64,000 nucleotides of DNA from Caldilineaceae bacterium (lineage in GTDB: Bacteria; Chloroflexota; Anaerolineae; Caldilineales; Caldilineaceae). The stretch is from the NCBI GenBank assembly GCA_022821585.1, contig JAJEDI010000050.1, positions 212,421-276,420 of the forward strand, read 5' to 3'. The notes below the pieces were generated by a model. The model made no database searches and was not told the origin of the DNA. It was given only the letters and a program-made list of their open reading frames with translations. The position numbers and the translations under genes were made by a program. How positions within the stretch are numbered: the first letter of the stretch is position 1; every line of letters begins with the position of its first letter. Positions 33,737 to 41,139 of the stretch are shown here, one piece after another.

Positions 33737-34030
33737 ATGCAAGAAGGGCAATTTGACGAGACGATTGAGGCGACCCTCTCCGCGTTTGGTCAGAGGCGGA
33801 TGGTATTGCCTGCAGTACTTTTTGTGGCCGGGCACCGTCCACTGGCATTCGTTTTCGGGCAGGTTCTGTTGATTCTCCAGCCTTTGGCTGCGCTGTTGGG
33901 CACCGACGGGCTGGCCGCGTGGGCCGATTTGCTCTCCCATCCAAACGGTCCCGACGCGCTCTCTGATCGGTTGGCGGCATTGTTAGAGAAGGACCGCTAT
34001 GCAACTCGTGACCTGAAATCTGAACCGTGA
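33737..34030 (+). CDS. Uncharacterised small membrane-associated protein (operon gene 1)
   Basis: 97 aa from the ATG at 33737 (the track TTG at 33716 is an alternative). A hydrophobic centre (VLPAVLFVAG and LAFVFGQVLLILQPLAALLG) is followed by an amphipathic helix (DALSDRLAALLEKD). No family recognised with certainty. Its stop TGA overlaps the GTG of the next gene as GTGA, which indicates translational coupling and a shared function with the five genes downstream. Confidence 0.65.
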   Translation: MQEGQFDETIEATLSAFGQRRMVLPAVLFVAGHRPLAFVFGQVLLILQPLAALLGTDGLAAWADLLSHPNGPDALSDRLAALLEKDRYATRDLKSEP

Positions 34031-34656
34031 GCATCTATTCAAGACCAAGACAACTGGCACATGCATGGCGACAGCTGGCGGACAACGCAAATGAGTCCGG
34101 GGAAACGCCGCTGTTCGCCCTGGGCCTCGATTCGCACTACAGGGACGGACTGCTGAGGCTGCTTGCCCTGGGCCGTCTCGCGCGCCAGAACCTGGGACCG
34201 CAGCACCCGACAATTGTCGCCGGGGGTGACGGCTGGCTCTGGCTGCTGTCTATGCTGGTCTGGCGGCCTGCGGTTGGCGGACGTAGACTCCATTCGGCAG
34301 CCGTTCCCAGCGCGGCCTCTGAGGAAGAAGCGGAGGTGCTGTCGGGACAGTTCGACGATTCAGAGCGAACAGTACTCTATGCGGGAGCTGACAGCGCCTT
34401 GTACGCCGCGGTGCTCAACCTGTCGCGGCAGCGGGGGGACTGGGACGCGATGCCTATGGGTCTGGACTGGTCTGTGCGGTGGTCGACACCTGCCGGTGTC
34501 GAAGGCTCAGACATCGAGTTGCTGCCAGCCGTCATCACCCAGGCGTCTCTAACGAAGTCCGCAGGGCCCGTTGACGACTCCTGGCTGAGGAGGGGAGAAC
34601 GCTGGGCGGGCGTCCTGCTGGCGCTGGTGCTCCTGATCGCTTCATTTTTTGGATAG
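34027..34656 (+). CDS. Uncharacterised protein with C-terminal membrane anchor (operon gene 2)
   Basis: 209 aa from a GTG overlapping the previous stop. Soluble, mainly helical N-terminal part, a central segment rich in small residues, and a single C-terminal helix (WAGVLLALVLLIASFFG) that would anchor the protein with the bulk in the cytoplasm. No motif recognised. Second of six coupled genes. Confidence 0.65.
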   Translation: MSIYSRPRQLAHAWRQLADNANESGETPLFALGLDSHYRDGLLRLLALGRLARQNLGPQHPTIVAGGDGWLWLLSMLVWRPAVGGRRLHSAAVPSAASEEEAEVLSGQFDDSERTVLYAGADSALYAAVLNLSRQRGDWDAMPMGLDWSVRWSTPAGVEGSDIELLPAVITQASLTKSAGPVDDSWLRRGERWAGVLLALVLLIASFFG

Positions 34657-34662
34657 GCGCCA

Positions 34663-35292
34663 GTGTTTTCTTCCCGGTCAGGCTGGCTAAATCGCATTGT
34701 CCTTCTAATTGTCCTGTTAACCGCAGGAGGGATCGTTTCCGCTCGGTTGGGCCTGTCGCTGGCGCCGACCGAAGCTACGACAACGCTGTACGGTTGGGCG
34801 CTGCTGCTGGGCGGGTTCGCAATCATCCTGGGCATCGCCAACGCCGTACGGTTTCACCTGGTCAGGGTTCAGCGCGGGCAGAGAGAGTGGCTATTCAGTC
34901 TGCTTCTCCTGGTTGTTTTTGCCCTTGTTGTGGGCGCCGGGATCACTTCGCCCGAGGGAACGACGGGGCTACTTTCAGAGTGGGTATTCGATGCGGTGCT
35001 GGCGCCGGGACAGGCAACGCTTTTTGCGCTGACCGGCGTTTTTCTGATAAGCGCGGCGTACCACTTTCTGCGGGTTGACCGGCCGGGAGGCATCTGGATT
35101 CTTGCCGGCGCCTTGTTGATGTTCCTTGTGCAGACGCCATTCCTCTATCAGATAGTGCCCCAGTCGCTGGTGGACCTGGTCGACTGGCTTCTCTCGTGGC
35201 CCGTGATGGCCGCAATGCGCGGCGTCCTGCTCGGAGGAGCCCTTGCTGTCCTTTTCATCAGCCTCCGACTGATCGTAAACAGCGCAAAGTAG
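34663..35292 (+). CDS. Six-helix integral membrane protein (operon gene 3)
   Basis: 209 aa from a GTG six bases after the preceding stop. Six hydrophobic helices: ~10-30, 43-62, 75-95, 113-133, 143-165 and 187-205. A basic loop (HLVRVQRGQREW) after helix 2 suggests cytoplasmic orientation there. No family recognised; no pore, transport or enzymatic motif visible. Likely a membrane component of the complex encoded by this operon. Confidence 0.65.
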   Translation: MFSSRSGWLNRIVLLIVLLTAGGIVSARLGLSLAPTEATTTLYGWALLLGGFAIILGIANAVRFHLVRVQRGQREWLFSLLLLVVFALVVGAGITSPEGTTGLLSEWVFDAVLAPGQATLFALTGVFLISAAYHFLRVDRPGGIWILAGALLMFLVQTPFLYQIVPQSLVDLVDWLLSWPVMAAMRGVLLGGALAVLFISLRLIVNSAK

Positions 35293-35378
35293 ATTCGGAT
35301 ACCTGAAGGCGGCCATATTGACATAGAGCTGCTTCTGGTGTTCACTCGATAAGCTCTGACTTGGAGAACGCCGCGTCG

Positions 35379-36785
35379 ATGGCCACTTCGGACTGTCCAC
35401 ATTGCGGTTATGGAAACCCGATTTCCGCCCAATTCTGTGTCCAGTGCGGCACTATCATTGCGGGCCAGAAGCCGCCGTCCGTATCATCCGGCGAGTCCGC
35501 AAATGAGCCAGACGCGCGCGACGACGATCAGGAGTCGGCTCCACCCCTAAATGGCGAGGAGGGCCCAGAGCAGCAGCCCTCGACCGCAAGCTCCGACCCA
35601 GACTTCTCCGAGAGCCGGCCCCAATTGGCTGCCGCAGAGGACGAAACGGACGAGGACAGCGACGGACAGGGAGCGGTTCGCGGCCCTTCCCAGGCAGGCC
35701 CCCTGCTAAGGGGAATCGGCGGCCTGCTCGAACCCGCAGATCCGCTCTCGTACATCATGTCCGGTTCCGGCGCAAACGAACCGACAGTCGACCGTCCAAT
35801 CGCGCCCTCCGCGGAACTGGCTGCTGACGAAGAGGAACGCAGGGATCTACGCCGTCTCTTTTCGGAAGAGTTGCCGACGGCGGTCGGCGCAGTCCCGGAA
35901 ATTGTGGCGAGCGTTGCGGAGCCATCTCAGAATGGAGACGGACTGCAGCGACGGTTCTGGCTTGAAGTGATCCTGCTGCTGGGCATGGCCGGTGCACTGC
36001 TGTGGTGGGCGCCGGGACCGCCTGGAGGCGCCGGCCCGCACGCACTGCCGGGCCTGCAGCAGGCCCACCGGCAGGTCGACACTTTACAGCCGAACAGCCT
36101 TGTCCTGGTGAACTGGGCGTATGACCCGGCCACCGCCGGTGAGATGGACCTGGTAGCGCAGCCGATCGTCGAACATCTGCTGCAAAGGCAGGCGAAACTG
36201 ATCGTTTTCAGCCAGTTGCCGGGCGGGCCGGCCACTGCACGGCGGGTCATCGCCAGAGCCGAAGCGTCGTTGCAACGGCCATCGCGAACGCAGATTACGG
36301 CCAACCTGGTTATCGAGGGAGGATATCTTCCGGGTGGCAGCGCATCGATTCCCCTCCTGGGCGTCGCGCCGGCGCGTGCCCTGCCGGTGGATCCGACCTG
36401 GGTCGACCTGCGAGAACGGTTCCGCATCGCCGAGTTGGGTGAGGCCGGGCCGGCGCTGACAGTAGTGATCGCCGCACGCGCCGAAGATGTGCGGAGGTGG
36501 CTGGAACAGGTGCAGCCGCTTAACGGCGGGACCGTCATTGCGGCCACCAGTGCCGTGGTTGACCCGTCCGTTCGCCCCTATTTGCACAGCGGACAACTGG
36601 CCGGGCTCGTGAGCGGCTGGGACGGCGGCGGCGCCTATGTGCGCCGTCTGGAGCGCGCCCGCAGCGTCGAGGAGCAGGCCCGGTCGCTCAGGCATGCCGG
36701 CGGCCTGAACTGGGGGGTAGGCATTCTGATAGTCGCCGTGTTGCTAGGAAACCTGGCCGGGCTGACCGAACGGAGAACGCCGTGA
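35379..36785 (+). CDS. Zinc-ribbon membrane protein with extracytoplasmic domain (operon gene 4)
   Basis: 468 aa from the ATG at 35379 (TTG at 35361 is possible). N-terminal zinc ribbon CPHCGYGNPISAQFCVQCG, then ~170 acidic, low-complexity residues, a membrane helix (WLEVILLLGMAGALLWW) near 200, a ~210-residue domain probably outside the membrane, and a final helix (GVGILIVAVLLGNLAGL). The outer domain alternates strands and helices (NSLVLVNWAYDP, AKLIVFSQLPGGP, IEGGYLPGGSASIPLLG) like a Rossmann-type ligand-binding fold, but no catalytic motif is evident. The topology resembles a tethered sensor or scaffold. Couples by GTGA overlap to gene 5. Confidence 0.7.
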   Translation: MATSDCPHCGYGNPISAQFCVQCGTIIAGQKPPSVSSGESANEPDARDDDQESAPPLNGEEGPEQQPSTASSDPDFSESRPQLAAAEDETDEDSDGQGAVRGPSQAGPLLRGIGGLLEPADPLSYIMSGSGANEPTVDRPIAPSAELAADEEERRDLRRLFSEELPTAVGAVPEIVASVAEPSQNGDGLQRRFWLEVILLLGMAGALLWWAPGPPGGAGPHALPGLQQAHRQVDTLQPNSLVLVNWAYDPATAGEMDLVAQPIVEHLLQRQAKLIVFSQLPGGPATARRVIARAEASLQRPSRTQITANLVIEGGYLPGGSASIPLLGVAPARALPVDPTWVDLRERFRIAELGEAGPALTVVIAARAEDVRRWLEQVQPLNGGTVIAATSAVVDPSVRPYLHSGQLAGLVSGWDGGGAYVRRLERARSVEEQARSLRHAGGLNWGVGILIVAVLLGNLAGLTERRTP

Positions 36786-37648
36786 GCCCATTCAGCAACG
36801 GTCTTCCCGGCGTCATGCAGGACGCAGGCCTGATCCTGGGTCTCGCGGTTTCTCTGATGATCGGCAGCTACATCGTTCGAGACAGTTTTCTGGCGCGCCT
36901 GGGTCAGTACGTGCTGGTCGGGGCGGGTCTTGGCTACACGGTAGTGCTTGTTTGGCGCAACGTGCTGTGGCCCCGACTCTTTGCTCCTCTGATAGCAGAC
37001 CCCATGTCATGGCAGTCGGTTTCGGTTACCGGCCTGTTGAATCTCTGGCTGCCGCTCTTGCTGGGGGTATTGATGTGGGGAGGCGGGTTGGAACTCCTGC
37101 GCCGACCGCCAGCACGGCCGGGTGGAAGGAGCCTACTGCGGCTGCTGGCGGCGGTACCTGCTGCCATTCTCGGGGGCGTCGTCCTTGGCGTCGCCGTAAG
37201 CGGGGCGGTGCAGGGGACGCTATGGCCCCAGCTTTCGGCGGCCGTGGCTACAGCCGATGGGCCGGGCAGGGCCGACCAGCCGACGTGGCTGATCAGGTTC
37301 CTTACACTGATCATAACCGGCGGCGTGCTGATTCATCTGCAGCTTGGCCCCAATGCCGGGGCAGCGGGGAATGGCCCCTCGTCGCCGGGGTCTACCTCAT
37401 CAGAGGGCCCAAGAGCCGCTGGCGCAGGGCGACCGAAGCTCTTTAGAACGGTCTTCTTGATGTTGCTGCGCCTTTGGGAGGGCATAGGTCGTCGAGCGCT
37501 ATGGCTGGCTGCCGGCATTATTTTTGCACGGCTTGTCGCAGCCCGCTTCTCACTTACTCTGTCCCGGCTGGACTACCTTCTGTTTGAAATACCGCGCAGC
37601 GATCTCTGGCAACTTGTTTGGGCTTCTCTACGCGGAGGCGGTCCGTGA
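36782..37648 (+). CDS. Multi-helix integral membrane protein (operon gene 5)
   Basis: 288 aa from a GTG overlapping the previous stop by four bases. About six hydrophobic helices, with a Gly/Ser/Pro-rich loop (~205-225) splitting the protein before the last helices (ALWLAAGIIFARLVAARF). No family recognised. The GTGA overlaps at both ends tie it to genes 4 and 6, so stoichiometric production with them is likely. Confidence 0.68.
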   Translation: MSPFSNGLPGVMQDAGLILGLAVSLMIGSYIVRDSFLARLGQYVLVGAGLGYTVVLVWRNVLWPRLFAPLIADPMSWQSVSVTGLLNLWLPLLLGVLMWGGGLELLRRPPARPGGRSLLRLLAAVPAAILGGVVLGVAVSGAVQGTLWPQLSAAVATADGPGRADQPTWLIRFLTLIITGGVLIHLQLGPNAGAAGNGPSSPGSTSSEGPRAAGAGRPKLFRTVFLMLLRLWEGIGRRALWLAAGIIFARLVAARFSLTLSRLDYLLFEIPRSDLWQLVWASLRGGGP

Positions 37649-38943
37649 GTCTGGCGCGTGTTCAGCCGGTGCCGGTCCCCAGTCAGGGGCGTGCGGCAAC
37701 GTCTTTGGCTGACTTTGCTCCCCAGAGCATACTGGCCCTGGCGGCCGAGCCTCGGCGTGCGGTAGCTGTCCTGATCGAACCTGTCGAAGAGATTCGGCGC
37801 ATGGTTGGCTGGCAGACCGTAGAACTGTCAGAACGCGCCAGCCCCAGCGAATGCAAGTCCGCCCTTGTCCAGGCAGTCAGACGTCTGGAGAGTCAGTTCA
37901 ACATCTCACTCTGGGATGGGGAGCGTGGCCGGCCCCGCTTGCATCGTCCTGGGCAGGCGGTCGCGGAGGGCGTAGGCCAGATATTTGCGGTGGCGGACTT
38001 GCAGGCGCCTTTGCGTGTATGGATGGCGGGCCTTTCCGGCGGTGGAAGCCTGGCTGCGGGCGAAGCGGCGCTTGCCGGTGCGCTGTGCAACCCCGTTGCA
38101 ACCTATCTGCCAGGACCCTATCAAAGCCCGGGTGCTCTGACCAGAGAGTTCAGGTCGCTGCGACCGGATGTCGTTGTGGTCGTCGGCGGGCATGAACAGA
38201 TTGAGCCTCGAAGCCAGGACCAGGTACTTAATTTGAGCGGCCTTGTGATCGAAGCCGCGGCCCAATTGCCGGCAGAAGAGAGGCCTTTCTTTTGTTTCGC
38301 CGGGAACAGCCATTCGGCGGAAGCAGCGATGGCAAGTTGGCGCCTACGGACCGATGGGGGAGCGGCGGCGACGGCCGATAACGTGTTCAACAACACCGGT
38401 GGCAACAGCGCTACTGTTCTGAACACCGTACTCGAACGGCTTCACTGGCAGCGGTCTCTTGGCATTCCTGCCATGCAGGAGATTGCCCAGTGGCTGGAAC
38501 ACCCGGTAGAGCTGTCCAGCACGCAGTGGGCGTTTGCGCAGGCGGTCCGACTTTGGAGGCGGAGCCAGCAGCTGCCGAGTATACATGGGTTGTACGCGGC
38601 AGCTGACAGGTGGCTACACGTCTGGGCGTGGGAGACGCCGGACCAGGAAAGTGAGGGCCTGCGAATGAACTGTGTGCGACCAGGAGAGCGTCCGGAAGTC
38701 CTGGCCGACTGGCCGCCCGTCCGCCTGGTCAGCGGCGATTGGCCGGCGAAGTGGCCCCGGCCCGCGCAGCCGCCGCCCGTTCTGGGGTCTCAGCGGCCGG
38801 TCGCATTGCCCGCATTCTGGTGGGATCCGCTGGGCCTTGTGCCTGTCGTGGCAGGTGTCGGCCAAACCACGCCTGAAGCTGTCCTGGAGGTACTTAGGGC
38901 GGATATTCTCCTGGAGGACGGTACCGAATTCGCCACTGTTTGA
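37645..38943 (+). CDS. MutL/ASKHA-like uncharacterised protein (operon gene 6)
   Basis: 432 aa from the GTG at 37645, which overlaps the preceding stop (the track TTG is 27 bases earlier). Soluble. The order of segments resembles glutamate-mutase-associated MutL proteins of the ASKHA fold: FAVADLQAPLRVWMAGL, a GPYQSPGALTREF helix, RPDVVVVVGGHEQ corresponding to the 'LLAGGTDGG' block, and later FCFAGNSH. However, the DxGxT phosphate loop expected at the start of ASKHA proteins is not visible, so it may be a non-catalytic relative. With two membrane proteins directly upstream it could be the cytoplasmic partner of a membrane complex. Assignment tentative. Confidence 0.55.
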   Translation: MSLARVQPVPVPSQGRAATSLADFAPQSILALAAEPRRAVAVLIEPVEEIRRMVGWQTVELSERASPSECKSALVQAVRRLESQFNISLWDGERGRPRLHRPGQAVAEGVGQIFAVADLQAPLRVWMAGLSGGGSLAAGEAALAGALCNPVATYLPGPYQSPGALTREFRSLRPDVVVVVGGHEQIEPRSQDQVLNLSGLVIEAAAQLPAEERPFFCFAGNSHSAEAAMASWRLRTDGGAAATADNVFNNTGGNSATVLNTVLERLHWQRSLGIPAMQEIAQWLEHPVELSSTQWAFAQAVRLWRRSQQLPSIHGLYAAADRWLHVWAWETPDQESEGLRMNCVRPGERPEVLADWPPVRLVSGDWPAKWPRPAQPPPVLGSQRPVALPAFWWDPLGLVPVVAGVGQTTPEAVLEVLRADILLEDGTEFATV

Positions 38944-39027: not shown

Positions 39028-40395
39028 ATGACGACGACTCTGCGCCAGTCCGAAGGAAGCGATATGAGGCAGACAGACGTAGGACCCATCATCCAGTTGC
39101 TCAACAGTTCCCATTGTGTCGAAGTAACGGGATTCAGTAATGTGGGCAAGTCTTCGTTGATGCGGATACTGGCTCACGCCGATGTCTGGCTGCAACAACT
39201 GGGCGAAGAGGGCAGCGCGATACTGCCGGTTTACATCGACTGTAACCGCATGCTGGATATGACGGAGCAGGGGTTTTATGAACTGGTGCTGCGATGTCTA
39301 CAGGAGAGCAGCCCTGTCCTGGCAGAAAGCCGGGAACTGCAGGAGGCCTACGAGGCCTTGATTGCCCCCGCAAACGTCTTTCAGGTTCCTCTGAGTTTCA
39401 GCAACGGGTTGACCGCCGCGCTGCATAAGGATGAGTACAAACTGATCCTGCTTTTCGACGAATTTGACGAGCCGTTTCAGCGGATCGACACGCGTGTGTT
39501 TCTCAACCTGAGAGCCAAGAAGGACCGTTACGGCAACCGGCTAGTATTTGTTACAGCAACGGTACGGCCACTGGCGACTCTGCGTCCCGGCGACCACAGC
39601 GGCGAATTTCGCGAGCTATTTGCCCATCATCCCTGGCACCTTGCTCCCCTTCCCCGACATGACGTGGAACGATATCTACGTCGTTTTGGCGCGCAGAATG
39701 GCGTCGTCCCATTTGAGGAAGATATCGACTTTGTCTACCAGTGGACGGGTGGGCATCCGGGCTATCTGGCCGGGGTCAGCCGGATTCTGGCGCGTGCGGA
39801 GGCGGCGCTGGATGGGGACAGTGAAGGCGGGCAGAATCGCTTCTCGTTTCTGAGGGGTCTGATAGAGCAGCTGCGCGGCGATCTGACCCTGCAGAGCGAA
39901 GGCGAGAAGATATGGAAGAGCTGCACGACAGAGCAGCAGGTGGCTTTGCGCCTTCTGTTCTCCGGGCAGGAGCCTGACGATGGCCCGATGTCGCAGCTGA
40001 TGAAGCACCACGTCCTGGTTCAGGAGCGGGAGGAGCTGCGCGCGTTTTGCCGTCTATTCGCCGAGTATGTTTTGGCACACCAGACTGCGGCGACGTTGGG
40101 GGAAGGGCTCCGTCTAGATGAAGAGAGCGGGGAGGTGACCGTAGGCGGCCGTCCGATCGACCTCACGCAGCTCGAATTTCGGTTGATGAAGCTACTCTAC
40201 CTTATGAGCAACAGCATTGTAGACAAATTTCAGATTGTCGAAGGCGTTTGGGGTGACGAACACATGCTGGATGTGGACGATGCCCGCATCGAGAAGCTGG
40301 TCAGCCGGTTGCGCCAGAAGGTGGAGCCGGACCCGTCAGAGCCTGTTTACATCACCACGGTTCGAGGCAGGGGATACCGGCTGGTAACCGACTGA
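39028..40395 (+). CDS. P-loop NTPase fused to OmpR/PhoB-type winged-helix domain
   Basis: 455 aa from the ATG at 39028 with GGAGGGG directly upstream. N-terminal AAA/STAND-like ATPase: Walker A GFSNVGKSS at 35-43, Walker B LILLFDEFDE near 150, and a sensor-type TATVRP downstream; a helical lid follows (DFVYQWTGGHPGYLAGVSRIL). The last ~95 residues are a Trans_reg_C winged helix (LTQLEFRLMKLLYLMSN, DDARIEKLVSRLRQKVEPD, ITTVRGRGYRL). No receiver, repeat or sensor domain is present. It may be an ATP-driven switch that controls transcription, possibly of the six-gene operon ending 84 bases upstream; that link is inferred from position only. Confidence 0.82.
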   Translation: MTTTLRQSEGSDMRQTDVGPIIQLLNSSHCVEVTGFSNVGKSSLMRILAHADVWLQQLGEEGSAILPVYIDCNRMLDMTEQGFYELVLRCLQESSPVLAESRELQEAYEALIAPANVFQVPLSFSNGLTAALHKDEYKLILLFDEFDEPFQRIDTRVFLNLRAKKDRYGNRLVFVTATVRPLATLRPGDHSGEFRELFAHHPWHLAPLPRHDVERYLRRFGAQNGVVPFEEDIDFVYQWTGGHPGYLAGVSRILARAEAALDGDSEGGQNRFSFLRGLIEQLRGDLTLQSEGEKIWKSCTTEQQVALRLLFSGQEPDDGPMSQLMKHHVLVQEREELRAFCRLFAEYVLAHQTAATLGEGLRLDEESGEVTVGGRPIDLTQLEFRLMKLLYLMSNSIVDKFQIVEGVWGDEHMLDVDDARIEKLVSRLRQKVEPDPSEPVYITTVRGRGYRLVTD

Positions 40396-40502: not shown

Positions 40503-40605
40503 ATTCCCAGTCCATTTGATGCAGCCCGCCGGGCAAAGGGGAAACGAACGCCTGCGGTTGTGTGGAAGCGCTTTCAACTCATTCCTTTCAAGGCAGAATT
40601 GTCCT

Positions 40606-41139
40606 ATGGCTGATTCCCTTCAAGCAGAAGACGTCCGAGAAGCGGTGAGATTCCGAGGCCGACCGAAGTCGATGGTGTCGGCGGCCGCCCTGCTCATTGC
40701 GGGTACTTTGACATTCACAATGGGAATCGACCGGCTCTTCTTCGTGGAGGCCATTGCCTGGACTTTCCTGATCTGGGGGGCGCTACTCCTTTACGGGCAC
40801 GTCATCGATATCGGCACCGTATACGAAGTCTCGGATGAAGGGCTCGTGATCAGGAGCCCGTTACGCTTCTGGGCGATCTCGCGCAAATGGGAGTGGGGGC
40901 ACATGACACGCCTGGACGTGGTCGTGCGCAGAAGGGAGGCGAGCCAGGAGGACGTCGACCTGCAGGTTCATTACACTCCGGAAGACTCGACCGTACTGTT
41001 TCGGGAGGACCTTCCCTTCATCCCTGAGCTGGCAGAGGAAATTGCCAGCCGCGCCGGACTGACGCCGGAAAGACGGCAGGCAATGCAAAGCTTCGATTCG
41101 ATTCCCCAGGACGAAAAGGGCTCTTACTCCTGGAATTAG
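40606..41139 (+). CDS. Membrane protein with bacterial PH-like domain
   Basis: 177 aa from the ATG at 40606; the track start lies in the leader. Two adjacent hydrophobic helices (~30-50 and 56-77) are followed by a beta-rich cytoplasmic domain (YEVSDEGLVIRSPLRFWAISRKWEWGHMTRLDVVVRR...), whose 'VSDEGLVI' opening resembles bPH2-type bacterial pleckstrin-homology domains. A helix (PELAEEIASRAGL) and a flexible tail end the protein. Function unknown; such proteins are often envelope-stress or scaffold related. Monocistronic; the next gene is convergent. Confidence 0.6.
   Translation: MADSLQAEDVREAVRFRGRPKSMVSAAALLIAGTLTFTMGIDRLFFVEAIAWTFLIWGALLLYGHVIDIGTVYEVSDEGLVIRSPLRFWAISRKWEWGHMTRLDVVVRRREASQEDVDLQVHYTPEDSTVLFREDLPFIPELAEEIASRAGLTPERRQAMQSFDSIPQDEKGSYSWN

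Follow-up and report, generated by a model that had tools for sequence, protein, structure and literature searches.

A six-gene membrane-protein set conserved in Chloroflexota and its reduced version in Caldilineaceae

Introduction

Several described systems resemble parts of the gene set considered here. The PilM-PilN-PilO-type platforms of pili and type II secretion include an actin-fold cytosolic protein and small membrane proteins. GlmL, which shares the Pfam family PF13941 with MutL, is thought to serve B12-dependent mutases. Barrel-sandwich domains are found in RnfC and NqrA of the Rnf/Nqr complexes, and DUF6754 (PF20539) is a Pfam family with no known function. The present work concerns six adjacent genes, g1 to g6, of a Caldilineaceae bacterium (Chloroflexota; assembly GCA_022821585.1). 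They lie in a stretch of 64,000 nucleotides, positions 212,421 to 276,420 of contig JAJEDI010000050.1, which is referred to below as the window.

The set appears to represent a multi-phylum conserved membrane system that is undescribed in the open-licence literature searched. The gene set itself, its conservation and its reduction in the family are well supported, and a complex of its products is likely. Here, the family means Caldilineaceae, to which the window belongs; loci of relatives are numbered with L and genomes of relatives with G.

Gene set and junctions

Six open reading frames of the + strand, g1 to g6, span 33737-38943, and three GTGA stop-start overlaps join members of the set, exactly where an earlier note on this DNA had placed them. 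The overlap counts listed here come from loci that span many families, the relatives among them being non-independent.

33737..34030, + strand: g1, 97 residues from ATG; first gene of the set, with one transmembrane (TM) segment by hydropathy
34027..34030, + strand: GTGA overlap of g1 and g2; the same overlap type joins these genes in 34 of 61 loci
34027..34656, + strand: g2, 209 residues, tail-anchored; apparently a divergent, shortened DUF6754 homologue
34663..35292, + strand: g3, 209 residues, six TM segments
35361..36785, + strand: g4, 474 residues; N-terminal zinc ribbon, acidic linker, TM segment, predicted extracytoplasmic Rossmann-like domain, TM segment
36782..36785, + strand: GTGA overlap of g4 and g5; a four-base overlap at this junction in 45 of 74 loci
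36782..37648, + strand: g5, 288 residues, polytopic, 5-6 TM segments
37645..37648, + strand: GTGA overlap of g5 and g6; a four-base overlap at this junction in 30 of 75 loci
37645..38943, + strand: g6, 432 residues, soluble; ASKHA homologue of MutL type that lacks phosphate loops and is a putative pseudo-ATPase

The gap between g2 and g3 is 6 bases and that between g3 and g4 is 68. For g1, a TTG start 21 bases upstream is also open, and ATG at 35379 is an alternative start of g4. By hydropathy, g1 has a single TM segment, g2 a C-terminal one, g3 six, g4 two that flank its outer domain, g5 about five and g6 none, which backs the membrane layout proposed earlier. The overlaps support coupled expression of the genes; the fixed stoichiometry that had been read from them does not follow, as they set no ratio. 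Promoter and terminator scans of the region gave results at chance level only.

Conservation within Chloroflexota

For the survey of the phylum, g6 was searched in 100 related genomes, its surroundings were retrieved, and profile searches followed. The order g1-g2-g3-g4-g5-g6 is complete and strand-consistent in 30 loci of the family, apart from the window, and in 28 loci of other families or classes; many of the exceptions sit on short contigs or at contig ends. An impression that similar sets occur in other Chloroflexota was therefore right: across the phylum the six families stay together, the same order recurring in 58 other loci, and no scattering of the genes is seen in relatives. Direct non-iterated phmmer searches with the window proteins reached across classes for g3 (7e-26), g4 (1.8e-24), g5 (3e-13) and g6 (1e-13), and likewise recovered g1 in other classes, where it precedes g2 (1.9e-9 to 1e-5).

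Within the genus, the ratio of non-synonymous to synonymous substitution rates (dN/dS) is 0.08-0.32 for all six genes, which are under purifying selection. The recurrence of the six-gene order, the low dN/dS and the recurring overlaps amount to more than chance. Conserved membrane systems of this kind were recognized by g3, g4 and g5 homologues standing adjacent and in order, as they do in the window. In an even sample of 201 genomes of the phylum, the g4 outer domain was matched in 49 (two only weakly), essentially as a single copy, and all 43 DUF6754-positive genomes also carried g4.

The set is present in the cultured Herpetosiphon aurantiacus (genome PMC3368417) and Chloroflexus aurantiacus J-10-fl (genome PMC3150298). 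The genes lie at about 216.3-224.5 kb in the former and, if its contig begins as the published chromosome does, at about 321.3-329.7 kb in the latter. The former is a filamentous glider and the latter is filamentous, and this distribution would suit a surface-motility or filament-organizing machine of filamentous Chloroflexota, ancestrally driven by an actin-fold ATPase. The ASKHA fold does include actin-like filament proteins. Such a machine is nevertheless very unlikely: WOR-3 and other candidate phyla, for which gliding is not known, also carry the set, and in many copies; no motility genes were recognized nearby; and g6 of the family has lost the ATP-binding loops.

Distribution beyond the phylum

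The earlier note had mentioned other Chloroflexota; the distribution extends far past that phylum, and a related form exists in several candidate phyla. The core g2-g3-g4-g5 block was found in WOR-3/Stahlbacteria, Latescibacterota, Poribacteria, Coatesbacteria, Fermentibacteria and others, often in multiple copies. A single genome scan baited with a DUF6754 query sequence returned 78 loci in these phyla, with 67-78% identity to the query. Window-derived profiles placed g3, g4 and g5 directly after g2 in most of these loci, with exactly g2-g3-g4-g5 in 40. The order g1-g6-g9-g2-g3-g4-g5, where g9 is a gene described below, was seen in the Poribacteria locus L141 and two other loci. By phmmer, g3 matched its L141 homologue at 1.6e-22, and g1 had a weak match in Coatesbacteria (L201, 3e-4).

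All 16 candidate-phylum genomes checked hold PF13941 (MutL) together with one to seven DUF6754 genes each, a co-occurrence in one direction only, as the genomes were picked for having DUF6754. Some candidate-phylum genomes reach seven DUF6754 genes. Tandem arrangements of the g2-g3-g4-g5 block, in two to four copies of which some are incomplete, were observed in loci L174, L153, L129, L164 and L152 of candidate phyla.

The reduced version in Caldilineaceae

Outside the family, the slot between g1 and g3 is taken by a clear DUF6754 protein (148.5 and 118.4 bits, cut-off 27). The window's g2 occupies the same slot; it has no PF20539 match in Pfam at the cut-off of 27 bits, and the window's genome is likewise devoid of a match. 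Its N-terminal part aligns with the DUF6754 profile over 64 columns (hhalign probability 79%, E 1.6e-5), and g2 of the family is missing the conserved C-terminal G-E-E and other residues. The small membrane-anchored protein noted earlier thus keeps its anchor and loses its anonymity, as it appears to be a degraded DUF6754 homologue with an eroded second half.

Outside the family, g6 is encoded at full length, as an ASKHA protein of MutL type with about 580-600 residues, and orthologues pass the PF13941 cut-off of 27 bits (L041, 186.5; L141, 433.7). For the window's g6, the match covers residues 97-315 of the longer open reading frame and reaches 21.2 bits; it is real though sub-threshold. ASKHA proteins were assessed by two phosphate loops, DxGSTTT-like and DIGGATTD-like, counted by pattern and followed in alignment. 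Candidate-phylum g6 proteins have the first loop in 8/8 cases and the second in 5/8, with DCGSTTT and DIGGATTD in the alignment. For other Chloroflexota the counts are 13/34 and 17/34, with all grades of decay, and in the family both loops are lost (0/41), the window's g6 having neither. The absence of a visible phosphate loop was therefore correctly noted at the outset, and it is a lineage-specific loss that makes the window's g6 a putative pseudo-ATPase. No match to Pfam MutL at E <= 0.001 was found anywhere in the window's genome, whose assembly is about 94% complete, so that there is no known intact copy that could stand in for g6. A plasmid search for g6 was empty.

A seventh gene, g9, of about 370 residues and with weak barrel-sandwich similarity, lies directly after g6 outside the family. 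It scored strongly in about 32 of 54 class genomes of other families; the 46 genomes of the family yielded no clear match, only three marginal and short ones near E 1e-3. The MutL-type ASKHA protein and g9 are fused in one 920-residue frame in L184 (11093-13852), and this fusion supports a shared task. The set of six genes stands as first described, but it is not complete, since the ancestral system would have g9 as well. It is well supported that the family carries a reduced version, in which the loops and g9 have been lost and the second half of g2 appears eroded, with all six genes kept.

The membership of g6 homologues in Pfam MutL (186.5 bits against a cut-off of 27) and a match of one of them to the GlmL-like ornithine protein Or-4 (2e-18) raise the question of a membrane-attached system that maintains or reactivates a cofactor enzyme, in the manner of GlmL. 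NCBIfam GlmL models scored far below their cut-offs on the L041 orthologue (TIGR01319, 27.1 against 204; accessory_GlmL, 56.4 against 475) and gave no match on the window's g6. Among 119 near neighbours in candidate phyla, the 25 most frequent families included no B12-binding domain or mutase, and no mutase or B12-binding genes were recognized by eye near the Chloroflexota copies. Some class genomes also have separate strong MutL genes of 459-486 residues (E near 1e-164) besides the cluster form of about 590 residues. A maintenance role of this kind is therefore highly improbable, and a GlmL/B12 accessory system proper was rejected on the sub-cut-off GlmL scores and the lack of mutase or B12 neighbours. 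Separate MutL-type genes were also seen in open frames of 1200-1270 residues (G083:C55, G094:C50, G027:C26, G059:C45).

The seventh gene bears on another possibility, a redox- or ion-coupled membrane pump of Rnf/Nqr type. It resembles RnfC_N and NQRA_N, with RnfC_N reaching 26.2 bits against a cut-off of 25.6 in the L184 fusion, and g3 and g5 provide two polytopic subunits, as in Rnf/Nqr complexes. However, the barrel-sandwich fold is common to many proteins, and stand-alone g9 stays below the cut-offs. The conserved positions of g2-g5 include no cysteine and thus give no sign of Fe-S clusters, and g9 is absent from the window's family. A pump is quite unlikely on these grounds.

The membrane part

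The zinc ribbon predicted in g4 is real by its Pfam score (Zn_Ribbon_1, 26.8 bits, cut-off 25), the only above-cut-off Pfam match in g1-g6. AlphaFold models were made for relatives, L153 for the outer part of g4 and L141 for DUF6754, and not for the window proteins, each from an alignment of relatives. Both predict a Rossmann-like domain between TM helices, with a predicted local distance difference test score (pLDDT) of 94.6 and 88.1, respectively. Foldseek comparison with the PDB returned nothing at E <= 1e-3, the best hits being generic alpha/beta folds at 2e-3 for g4 and 6e-3 for DUF6754. Sequence searches of the PDB with the g4 profile, the DUF6754 profile and full-length g6 gave no match. 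From the order of TM segments and the flanking charges, the g4 domain probably lies outside and the DUF6754 domain inside the cell.

Conserved H, R, G, P and W positions of g3 are mostly kept in the family. In other Chloroflexota, [DE]W[LM] repeats occur in large excess in the cytosolic linker of g4, 173 against 7.6 expected from shuffles, with the consensus P-D-W-L-[RK]-[ED]-L. The family's g4 has 3 such motifs where 1.1 are expected, and candidate-phylum g4 proteins have no linker. A binding role of the motif is putative. Locus L056 (813-7598) encodes a g4 homologue of 2262 residues with a very long acidic linker; its outer part contains a bacterial SH3 domain (PF08239, 8.9e-12) before the last TM segment. 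The N-terminus of g2 in L141 is FN3-like in our reading of the sequence. Together, the FN3-like and SH3 domains indicate that the outer side would face the wall.

Neighbouring genes

Two further genes follow the set in the window.

39028..40395, + strand: g7, STAND/AAA-type ATPase with an OmpR-type winged helix; often found beside the set and a possible regulator, though outside the core
40516..41139, + strand: g8, 207 residues, two TM segments; frequent neighbour

The g7 protein matches Trans_reg_C at 3.6e-20 and combines the NTPase with the winged helix, having no receiver domain. It stands after g6 in 21 loci of the family and near the set in 5 loci of other families. This position, and the fact that the system was kept when the phosphate loops were lost, as suits a scaffold, would agree with a transmembrane scaffold for signalling or regulation, reporting the state of the envelope, with g7 as the output in some families. 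Such a scaffold is unlikely: g7 is missing beside most other copies of the set, and two polytopic subunits with an ASKHA protein exceed the needs of known sensors.

A gene that immediately precedes g1 in Poribacteria and others is tentatively linked to g8: non-iterated profile searches gave E 0.002-0.06 with the better members of the family, and the profile-profile probability was 66%. A far stronger link (E 6e-30) was set aside, as the iterated model contained g8 itself. The cytosolic part of g8 may be PH-like in our reading.

Other genes recur near the set in particular groups. Eight loci of the family (L021, L026, L031, L034, L038 and L039 among them) have a related lipoprotein-like gene upstream of g1, divergent on the opposite strand, and its copy in L026 has DUF3048 domains. 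A large membrane protein with the motif Y-F-Y-[DE]-A-H-D-G-R-H-S-V-F-Y is encoded after g6 on the same strand in five family loci (including L034:6173-8134, L036:9848-12067 and L039:5883-7769); Pfam gave no match for the L036 copy at E <= 0.01. Ten loci of other families (L043:6184-6762, L046:6092-6637, L048:11918-12487, L055:11542-12096 and six more) encode after g9 a protein of about 180 residues with one N-terminal TM segment, a Pro/Thr-rich stretch and a C-terminal LPxTG-like motif (often P-x-TG) followed by a TM segment and a basic tail. The latter is a possible sorted surface protein.

Proposed role

The six genes would be what remains of a conserved inner-membrane system. Their products probably form one physical complex, and the predicted membrane topology is about as likely. 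The polytopic g3 and g5 probably build the membrane core. To this core, g4 would supply the Rossmann-like domain outside the cytoplasm and, on the cytosolic side, a zinc-ribbon tail, and g2 the cytosolic Rossmann-like domain, degraded in the window's family, while g1 would serve as a small adaptor in the membrane. Ancestrally, g6, as a cytosolic actin-fold ASKHA ATPase, and g9, as a barrel-sandwich adaptor, would link the membrane part to the binding or hydrolysis of ATP, broadly as PilM-type actin-like proteins organize envelope machines. ATPase activity of the ancestral g6 is probable. With both phosphate loops lost and g9 gone, the g6 of the window's family most likely serves as a scaffold.

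As a whole, the set may be tentatively read as an envelope-facing membrane machine, ancestrally coupled to an ASKHA protein, for building or exporting a surface polymer. The envelope role is the best guess in view of the SH3 domain of L056 g4 and of polysaccharide-type neighbours. SLBB/Poly_export proteins make up 9 of the 119 candidate-phylum neighbours and stand directly upstream of g2 in 9 WOR-3-type loci; Wzi-type capsule proteins lie near g5 in 5 candidate-phylum loci, and glycosyltransferases account for 4 of the 119 neighbours. Assembly of a surface polymer is the most likely form of such a role, although as a specific claim it is doubtful.

Several observations weigh against the proposed machine. 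The polysaccharide neighbours are confined to a few non-independent clades and are accompanied by unrelated ones (MazG, acetyltransferases, phosphoribosyltransferase/amidotransferase genes). Chloroflexota neighbourhoods vary and hold no consistent polymer genes. No active site was recognized in g3, g4 or g5, and the family's losses, of the loops and of g9, may go back to a single evolutionary event.

Significance

The envelope of Chloroflexota is unusual and poorly understood (PMC7332563), which makes a conserved envelope-facing complex a useful handle. A direct test is possible, since two cultured species, Herpetosiphon aurantiacus and Chloroflexus aurantiacus, have the set. By keeping the complex without an ATP-binding site, the family offers a natural experiment on the contribution of the ATPase. 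It is conceivable, as a speculative extension, that the set defines a new class of envelope machines with an actin-fold ATPase, a barrel-sandwich adaptor, a two-subunit core and Rossmann-like domains on both faces, present in Chloroflexota and uncultured phyla, of which the family would run an ATPase-less version.

Comparison with known systems

Profile and fold searches did not assign the set to any known complex. NCBIfam gave nothing useful for g1-g6, and the view that no known system is obvious here holds, as the profile libraries, sensitive profiles included, leave the set unexplained. The open-licence literature yielded no paper naming DUF6754 or PF13941, and the text of the C. aurantiacus proteome paper contains no discussion of g1-g6 homologues. 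The idea of an undescribed system stands to the extent that no profile, fold or open-licence literature match was found. An anti-phage defence system was ruled out, with no PADLOC match for g1-g8.

The likeness to PilM-PilN-PilO-type platforms is an analogy of layout only, with no Pfam match to PilN/PilO/PilP, GspL/GspM, a secretin or a secretion ATPase in the six proteins or the scanned homologues. With the Rnf/Nqr complexes the set shares the weak similarity of g9 to the RnfC/NqrA barrel-sandwich domains, but the family has no g9, the conserved g2-g5 positions carry no Fe-S signature, and the other domains differ. Assignment to Rnf/Nqr called for an RnfC/NqrA-type subunit together with conserved redox-centre residues, and the window's genome has no g9. 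The relation to MutL/GlmL (PF13941) is closer in that full-length g6 orthologues are members, many with the loops kept, whereas in the window g6 is truncated and loop-less and scores under the cut-off, and its gene company is membrane proteins rather than mutase subunits. As for DUF6754 (PF20539), the window's g2 differs in being without the N-terminal extracellular part and in having lost conserved C-terminal residues, and it resembles the DUF6754 proteins in its gene position and in its profile alignment.

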